From Branchiostoma floridae (lineage: Eukaryota; Chordata; Leptocardii; Amphioxiformes; Branchiostomatidae), in contig NC_049985.1 of NCBI RefSeq assembly GCF_000003815.2, forward strand, positions 20,264,921 to 20,328,920: a stretch of 64,000 nucleotides of DNA, read 5' to 3'. Below are positions 32,101-35,100 of this stretch, in pieces. The translations under genes and the position numbers were made by a program. The notes under the pieces are model-generated. The model worked only from the letters and a program-made list of their open reading frames with translations. It did not search any database and was not told the origin of the DNA. Each line of letters begins with the position of its first letter. The first letter of the stretch is position 1.

Positions 32101-35100
32101 AAAATTCATGACACTCCAAATATGTGTTTCCAATATATTACATGCACTACTGCACCATGATTCAAAATAAGAGCATGCAACTTGCAATTTGCATTGTAAC
32201 TCTTCAAAATACGCTCCTAAAAATATTCCGAACTTGCAATTTTGATGACATGGGAGATTTTAAGTCTAGATATAAGTCACTTTTGCATGTTGGAAATACC
32301 AAGCCTGTACAAAAAATGTTGAAGAAGACACCCTTCTTTTAGACTGAACTGCACATAGATGTCTTATTTTAACCCGTTTTCTCTAGTAACTTTTTCCGAG
32401 AACCAATAGATAACCCTTTCCCCTCTACTCTTATCCAACAGCACTGGAAAGATTTTGTGGTTTTACGTATGATAATATACATGTAATAACAAGATGAGAT
32501 CTGATGTTTTCAATGTGCTTTTCGTACCTTCCTTCCACAACAGAAGCCAAGGTTGGCCATCACAGGGTCAATCTCCTGCTCAAAAACCTCAGCAAGCTGG
32601 AGATACAAAGACACAAGTTAAGTCATTGCATACAACAACTCATCGCTTATTATGGTTGGAGAAATGCAGTTAACTTAATTCACATCATTACTGTATACTA
32701 AGTCCACACAAATTTGATTCCTTGGTTCCTCGAATTTGCTAGTTTTCTGATTCAGGCCATTGTGTCTGCCCTACAACATTCAAATTTTGGCACCATCAGT
32801 TAAAGAAAGTCTTTTTACTACATATATGTTTGCATTCATCCATGCATTAAGAAGTATTTTCTGAAATGTTCACCAGGCCAGGTGGTACGTTGACTTTGTG
32901 GCTCCTGTTGTAGCCTTTAGTCTATCACGAACTAATATGGCCAAAGTAAGACTCAATATCATTTCTTTGGTCTCTTAGCACAAAGCCTATCTTTAAACAT
33001 ACCCTAAAGCATGCGGAAATGTTGCATTTTTCATGACAGAATGCTTTACAAATATTTTACCCGTATGTCAATATCAGATTAGGTGTAGTGCCAGAACATA
33101 TACCTTAGAGCAGTACTTGTAAACCCTGGAAGTTTTGCGGTTGTACAGCCAGGCATTGTCAAACATCAGCCATACATCATCACAGTATTCCCAGGGGTCC
33201 TTGTACTGCCCTGTGTCCAGTTTTCTCTTGATGGTAGAAAGGTCCATAGGGTGTTTCACAATGTCAAAGTAGTCCTGTATTAGGAGAGAAAATTTCACAA
33301 CTCAAAAAACTTCACTTCACAAAGTTCAAAGTAGCACATAATCTTAAAAATGCATTTTTTCCAAGAATGATATCAAGGTGACAAAGGAGTCTGAAATCAT
33401 TTTCTTTCTTTTGTGGACTGTCTTTCAGTGGGCATGTCACCAAAGATAACCAGTCATAGATTTTTTTTTTAAATGCCAATATTGACTAGAACAAAGTGAG
33501 ACTCCTGCTAGGTTAAGTTAATATTTATCATGTTCAGTACATTCACACACACATGACGATTAGAACAACAAATATAATATTGCTGGATGTTCTTTATTTA
33601 AACACTTTTTTTCAGGCTGCAGGTCTTTGCAGATTATTGAAGACAAGATTAAGAAGATTAGTACTTAAACAAGACTTACATATTAGTTACCAGGAACAGT
33701 TGGTTATTTCTCACCATGACATGGCTGGGGACAGACAAATGACCTGCAGTCGTTCATGCAAAAATGGGGACCAAACCTTAGGAACTCGCAACCCCTGACT
33801 TACAGGGATGCCCAGCAGCTTGGGATCCACAGGCTGCCTGAAGGGAAGGGACTCCGGGTCCTGTCGGTACAGCTTCTCCAGGGTGGGCATCAGGGCCTGG
33901 CGCAGCTCATCTGGCTTAAACACTGCACAACACACAACATGGTGGCTTGGATACCAACACACTCATGGGGAATGAAGCTCAAAATCAGTCTATCTGGCTT
34001 AAACACTGCACAAAACACAACATGGTGGCTTGGATACCAACACACTCATGGGGAATGAAGCTCAAAATCAGTCTATCTGGCTTAAACACTGCATAACACA
34101 CAACATGGTGGCTTGGATACCAACACACTCATGGGGAATGAAGCTCAAAATCAGTCTATCTGGCTTAAACACTGCACAACACACAACATGGTGGCTTGGA
34201 TACCAACACACTCATGGGGAATGAACTCAAAATCAGTCTATCTGGCTTAAACACTGCATAACACACAACATGGTGGCTTGGATACCAACACACTCATGGG
34301 GAATGAAGCTCAAAATCAGTCTATCTGGCTTAAACACTGCACAACACACAACATGGTGGCTTGGATACCAACACACTCATGGGGAATGAACTCAAAATCA
34401 GTCTATCTGGCTTAAACACTGCACAAAACACAACATGGTGGCTTGGATACCAACACACTCATGGGTAATGAAGCTCAAAATCAGTCTATCTGGCTTAAAC
34501 ACTGCACAAAACACAACATGGTGGCTTGGATACCAACACACTCATGGGGAATGAACTCAAAATCAGTCTATCTGGCTTAAACACTGCATAACACACAACA
34601 TGGTGGCTTGGATACCAACACACTCATGGGGAATGAACTCAAAATCAGTCTATCTGGCTTAAACACTGCATAACACACAACATGGTGGCTTGGATACCAA
34701 CACACTCATGGGGAATGAACTCAAAATCAGTCTATCTGGCTTAAACACTGCATAACACACAACATGGTGGCTTGGACACCAACACACTCATGGGTAATGA
34801 AGCTCAAAATCAGTCTATCTGGCTTAAACACTGCACAAAACACAACATGGTGGCTTGGATACCAACACACTCATGGGGAATGAAGCTCAAAATCAGTCTG
34901 AATGCCACTTTTCACAAAATGGTCATGAGTAAGGGGGTGAGAGTCAAACAGTTTGCAGCAGCTTTGTTTTGGCATTGACCTCTCTACCACAAAATATGTA
35001 TTGCCAATGCATTCCTACTGTACTACTGGACTGTTTCAGCCATGAACTAAACATACCTTGAGTACAAGCCAGTAGTAACGGCACTCTATGTAAGGTTAGA

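Follow-up and report, generated by a model that had tools for sequence, protein, structure and literature searches.

Minisatellite-like arrays with copied splice signals, termed mirages, have been described in amphioxus in Adh3 and in the globin genes BflGb6 and BflGb9 (PMC3087553), and further mirages have been reported in troponin C and, with imperfect copies, in PGBD5 (PMC3902484). In BflGb6, units of 150–160 bp comprise the 3' end of an intron and the 5' part of exon 2, and the two haplotypes carry six and three repeat units, respectively (PMC3087553). The Adh3 mirage is somatically unstable, and one globin mirage was apparently misassembled in an older draft of the genome. Many mirage copies hold signals that could act as cryptic splice sites; the Adh3 data and RT-PCR of the globin genes suggest that regular splicing is undisturbed by the mirages. 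The globin mirages have been proposed as intermediates in the birth of introns and exons (all PMC3087553).

Here we describe an array found in a 64,000-nucleotide stretch of the Branchiostoma floridae genome (contig C7:20264921-20328920, hereafter the window; coordinates without a contig name are those of the window). As in the published amphioxus mirages, tandem minisatellite-like units lie across an intron–exon boundary, and copied splice signals stand beside an intact exon. Judged by its sequence organization, the array is a new, large example of the lancelet mirage, a kind that has itself already been published. A literature search, with most subscription papers outside its reach, found no report of an array in CBP/p300, and the globin-mirage paper (PMC3087553) does not contain the CBP term.

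Results

Organization of the array

The array is a minisatellite of 12 near-identical head-to-tail units on the minus strand, which is the strand of the gene. The features of the locus are as follows (a slash marks a splice junction).

33909..34899, minus strand: 12-unit minisatellite (mirage), units of 82/83 bp, across the intron–exon boundary (repeat finder and unit alignment)
33909..33991, minus strand: unit 12, which carries the real acceptor; exonic sequence begins at 33922 (unit alignment)
33992..34899, minus strand: units 1–11, the decoys, with a CAG and 14 exon bases copied in each (unit alignment)
33804..33922, minus strand: real exon, assigned to CBP/p300, that opens the bromodomain; 119 nt, then donor GTAAGT (phmmer E 1.7e-19; splice borders)
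33923..35970, minus strand: host intron of 2048 nt; nearly half of it, 33923-34899, is array (splice borders)
35971..36070, minus strand: end of the upstream exon (100 nt used), ...NKK plus one base; donor AAG/GTTGGT (frame and splice borders)
33104..33274, minus strand: following exon, which encodes the main part of the bromodomain (family match and frame)

Seven of the units are 83 bp long and five are 82 bp long. Each has 68/69 bp of intronic sequence with a CAG acceptor, followed by the 14 bases with which the bromodomain-opening exon begins, and reads AGACTGATTTTG... through ...GCAG/TGTTTAAGCCAGAT; CAG is followed by TGTTTAAGCCAGAT in all 12 units. Tandem Repeats Finder gave a period of 83, 12.0 copies, 97% matches and a score of 1863, far beyond chance. 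Unit 12, the last in the direction of transcription, continues into the real exon, and each of units 1–11 is followed by the next unit. The array thus contains one real and 11 decoy acceptors, the first exonic bases of decoys 1–11 being 34830, 34747, 34665, 34583, 34501, 34418, 34336, 34253, 34171, 34088 and 34005. These results bear out an earlier sequence-only reading of the window, which had described units of 82–83 bp copying the intron end, CAG and the first 14 exon bases, with eleven decoy acceptors before the true one. The end that it gave for the array (34899) was also correct, and its start (33908) is to be corrected to 33909.

Variation among the units is confined to five of 83 columns, all of them intronic (a single-base indel and four substitutions). 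The 14 columns of the copied exon part are invariant, but with five variable columns this has a probability of 0.39 by chance, and the idea of selection on these columns was rejected. Units 7–8 are the same in sequence as units 9–10, and the repeat finder detected self-matches of the array at shifts of 165 bp (99% identity over 247 nt) and 330 bp (98%). Together, these observations suggest that the array grew partly in two-unit blocks. The acceptor AG is preceded by an AG-free stretch of 21 nt, just upstream of which lies another AG. A search of the whole genome (513,431,437 bp in 431 contigs, very common words being skipped) with the array and the exon found no second locus, and a search of the whole window against Rfam at gathering scores gave no match.

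Host gene

The host gene is very probably CBP/p300. The exon behind the real acceptor was identified as a CBP/p300 exon by phmmer (best E 1.7e-19), as the sequence-only reading had claimed, and the exons that follow align successively with p300/CBP chains from the bromodomain through the HAT region (two short exons weakly). TAZ and CREB-binding domains follow the HAT region, and KIX and a TAZ finger are located upstream of the array. If the upstream exon (ending at 35971) is spliced to the real one, no stop interrupts the frame up to the end of the next exon. Within the examined part the gene seems to be intact; one acceptor, at ~24.2 kb, could not be placed. The family searches covered 20 of the 185 open reading frames, the three minus-strand frames of 34.9–64 kb and two of the three plus-strand frames of 1–14.7 kb.

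Other coding features were observed in the window and elsewhere in the genome. The intron separating the CBP/p300 exons at 24.05 and 21.02 kb holds a retroelement in antisense orientation, whose long open frame (745 aa; 21219-23456, plus strand) includes a domain of the reverse transcriptase family (RVT_1, E 4.6e-38). A polyprenyl synthetase is encoded by a single 283-aa open frame at 12109-12960 (plus strand, E 2.5e-67). On another contig (C4:19555598-19558054), six bromodomain matches were found, each in an open frame of 1514 aa, and this looks like one intronless polybromo-like gene.

Strength of the decoy acceptors

A splice matrix was built from 13 acceptors downstream of the array; a 14th, that of the exon at ~24.2 kb, was left out because its position could not be fixed. 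With this same-gene matrix, the decoys scored 4.49–5.02 and the real site 4.88, compared to a leave-one-out median of 6.1 for the 13 training acceptors; the matrix is crude, the leave-one-out scores ranging from -4.0 to 11.5. Scores equal to or higher than that of the real acceptor were obtained for 204 of the 3867 other minus-strand AGs. In the rest of the host intron, which has 67 AGs, three scored clearly above the real site (6.8, 5.7 and 5.5) and a fourth tied with it (4.9 against 4.88). When an alternative matrix (12 acceptors, other pseudocounts) was used, the array sites outranked all of these 67 AGs. Because the two matrices rank the other AGs differently, only the equality of the decoys with the real site is robust. 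The matrix thus shows that the decoys are predicted to be equal to the real site, not that they are strong.

The best donor-like GT in the array scored 1.9, against 3.2–9.9 (leave-one-out) for 16 donors of the gene. With donors as weak as this, the decoys could lengthen the exon but would hardly make exons of their own. Cryptic stand-alone exons are therefore unlikely, and a regulated poison exon, which requires an acceptor and a usable donor around a stop, was rejected on the same donor values, which are matrix scores and not usage. Recursive or zero-length-exon splicing needs AG/GT and was rejected, since all 12 sites read CAG/TG. RNA structure that might hide the decoys was examined by folding units 11 and 12 only, and these were no more stable than shuffled sequences (z -0.30).

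Predicted consequences of decoy use

Splicing to a decoy is predicted to insert 83 to 908 nt and to give an exon of 202–1027 nt, with 202 nt for decoy 11 and 285 nt for decoy 10. With each of the 11 decoys, a stop would be met after 29–38 codons, 86–923 nt before the next junction, in agreement with the earlier claim that decoy use would end translation early. The frame argument that had been offered for this claim holds, with corrections of detail. A frame shift, expected from 82/83 not being a multiple of three, applies to seven of the 11 decoys; the inserts of decoys 2, 5, 7 and 9 are multiples of three, yet a stop is still met. A TGA in the next unit, as had been claimed, is the first stop for five decoys (1, 5, 7, 9 and 10), whereas the first stop is a TAA in the next unit for five others (2, 3, 4, 6 and 8) and a TGA inside the real exon for decoy 11, which is nearest to the real site. 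According to the 50-nt rule, RNAs with a stop more than 50 nt before a junction should undergo nonsense-mediated decay. Since all of the stops lie farther upstream of the next junction than this, decoy-spliced RNAs should be decayed. Decoys 11 and 10 would be the likeliest to leak.

Frequency of minisatellites around splice sites

A base rate of minisatellites was obtained from 20 stretches of 10 kb, taken from contig C7 only and mixing genic and intergenic sequence (179,821 non-N bases); an array was counted if its period was at least 30 and its copies at least 2.5. In this sample, 20 arrays cover 7.7% of the sequence, or 3.9% without the four arrays longer than 1 kb. Of the 30 CBP splice sites examined, which leave out those upstream of 35971 and those of the last coding exon, one lies within an array, and the other 29 showed no mirage in BLAST matches of at least 30 nt within 3 kb. 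With random placement at the sampled rate, the probability that at least one of 30 sites falls in an array is 0.91, or 0.70 without the long arrays. At such a rate, the position of the array needs no selection or special cause. The minisatellite cover of the window itself, both of its arrays included, is 2.4% as against 7.7% in the sample, and the chance argument is therefore weaker for this neighbourhood.

The second minisatellite of the window, at its edge (1-520), has 67-bp units in 7.7 copies and touches no identifiable exon. A two-copy tandem duplication of ~165 bp (79% identical) is located at 53716-54062. Two short motifs (58 and 35 nt) occur in two copies each at 58384-59494, ~910 bp apart and 80–81% alike; one of them holds GTTCACCTTTATCCG, and they look like parts of a dispersed repeat. 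A 10-kb stretch of the same contig (C7:18000001-18010000) contains five tandem arrays, three with a 72-bp period.

A second mirage in a globin gene

A globin family search of the same genome gave nine loci. In one of them (L030, contig C18), an array at L030:954-1601, with a period of 158 and 4.2 copies, overlaps an exon start, its units copying the end of an intron together with the first part of the globin exon. Three decoy acceptors, with first exonic bases at positions 1036, 1190 and 1348 of this locus, precede the real one at 1506; the first decoy ends in TAG and the other two in CAG, and the decoys are spaced 154–158 bp apart. In unit length and position, this array agrees with what has been published for the three-unit form of BflGb6, and it is a second mirage in the genome that carries the CBP/p300 array. 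By the same test, the other eight globin loci had no overlapping array, and the published BflGb9 mirage was not seen at any of them.

Discussion

We propose that the array is a largely silent mirage in which the real acceptor is chosen by exon definition (we put the probability at roughly 0.8), and that repeat expansion in the DNA most likely produced it as a harmless side effect. The array would have originated from a tandem duplication with one breakpoint in the intron and the other 14 bases into the exon, and would have been enlarged by slippage or unequal exchange, partly in two-unit blocks. An AG exclusion zone upstream of an acceptor points to the position of the branch point. In these units the AG-free stretch spans no more than 21 nt, from the preceding AG to the acceptor AG, and each unit would therefore bring a branch point of its own and be complete as a 3' splice site. 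Among the twelve, unit 12 would win by exon definition, as it alone is joined to the body of the real exon and is nearest to its donor. The lengths of the exon (119 nt) and of its flanking introns (2048 and 529 nt) correspond to an exon-definition layout. For human exons between long introns, preference goes to the splice sites that are closest across the exon; at 3' sites, exon definition lessens the upstream preference, with no clean reversal (PMC9225289). Rare errors at decoys would lengthen the exon and add a stop, and the resulting RNAs would be removed by nonsense-mediated decay. With the last copy winning and the errors decayed, the array would be largely silent and free to vary in length. 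Its copy number is likely to be variable, given that the published globin mirage differs between haplotypes and that the units show block duplications.

Alternatively, splicing to the decoys may be frequent enough to matter and, being unproductive, may reduce CBP/p300 output, increasingly so as copies are added. The location of all 11 stops over 50 nt upstream of the following junction, the decoy scores of 4.49–5.02 against 4.88 for the real site, and the exons of 202 and 285 nt predicted for two decoys, which are of ordinary size, are consistent with this explanation. We nevertheless regard it as unlikely, because published mirages have been reported without disturbance of regular splicing (PMC3087553, PMC3902484), because most tandem repeats read as coding sequence would soon hit stops, which are thus no sign of design, and because the two of the 12 units that were folded together have ordinary RNA stability. 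Some decoy use is plausible, since only a reduced upstream preference is shown at 3' sites (PMC9225289) and cryptic use is allowed for mirages (PMC3087553). One can further imagine a length-dependent rheostat, in which leaky decoys nearest the exon send CBP/p300 transcripts to decay and copy number sets the dose of the co-activator between individuals, or between cells if the array is somatically unstable; this appears less likely still. The sequence-only reading had raised tuning by unproductive splicing as one option, and we find nothing that supports it: published mirages are reported to splice normally, the minisatellite base rate suffices to account for the position, and units 11 and 12 are not unusually stable. 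Neutrality, another of its options, fits best; the reading had not identified the array as an instance of a phenomenon already known from lancelets.

The copy number could also be false owing to collapse, expansion or mixing of haplotypes in the assembly. There is a run of 100 Ns in the window (45235-45334), and the apparent misassembly of a globin mirage in the older draft (PMC3087553) is a precedent; the window, however, has no other such run, and this one is more than 10 kb from the array, the units show an ordered pattern of variants, and the flanks are normal intron and exon. An artefact is accordingly considered very improbable. The least probable explanation is that the array is an intermediate in intron or exon birth, with the copied exon stub and acceptor becoming a new exon. 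Such a role has been proposed for the globin mirages (PMC3087553), but merely 14 exon bases are copied here, the units contain no good donor (best score 1.9), and their frames are closed.

The array offers a natural test of how the splicing machinery picks one of twelve near-identical acceptors, and does so in a gene whose missplicing should be costly. It is also a sizeable addition to the lancelet mirages. If the decoys leak, copy number would be a measurable dosage variant.

In the CBP/p300 array, as in BflGb6, the 3' boundary of the intron is copied. The CBP/p300 array differs from the published mirages in its host gene, in its unit of 82/83 bp and in copying only 14 exon bases, and it has 11 decoys compared to six or three repeat units in BflGb6. 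Outside lancelets, the human interferon gene 6-16/IFI6 contains a short-unit minisatellite that repeats a splice donor, and alternative use of the repeats has been reported. A repeated splice signal is common to both, although the CBP/p300 array repeats acceptors in place of a donor. In potato RdRp, an intron was reportedly gained by tandem genomic duplication. Both cases link tandem duplication with splice signals; the potato event produced a new intron, whereas the CBP/p300 array only lengthens an existing one.
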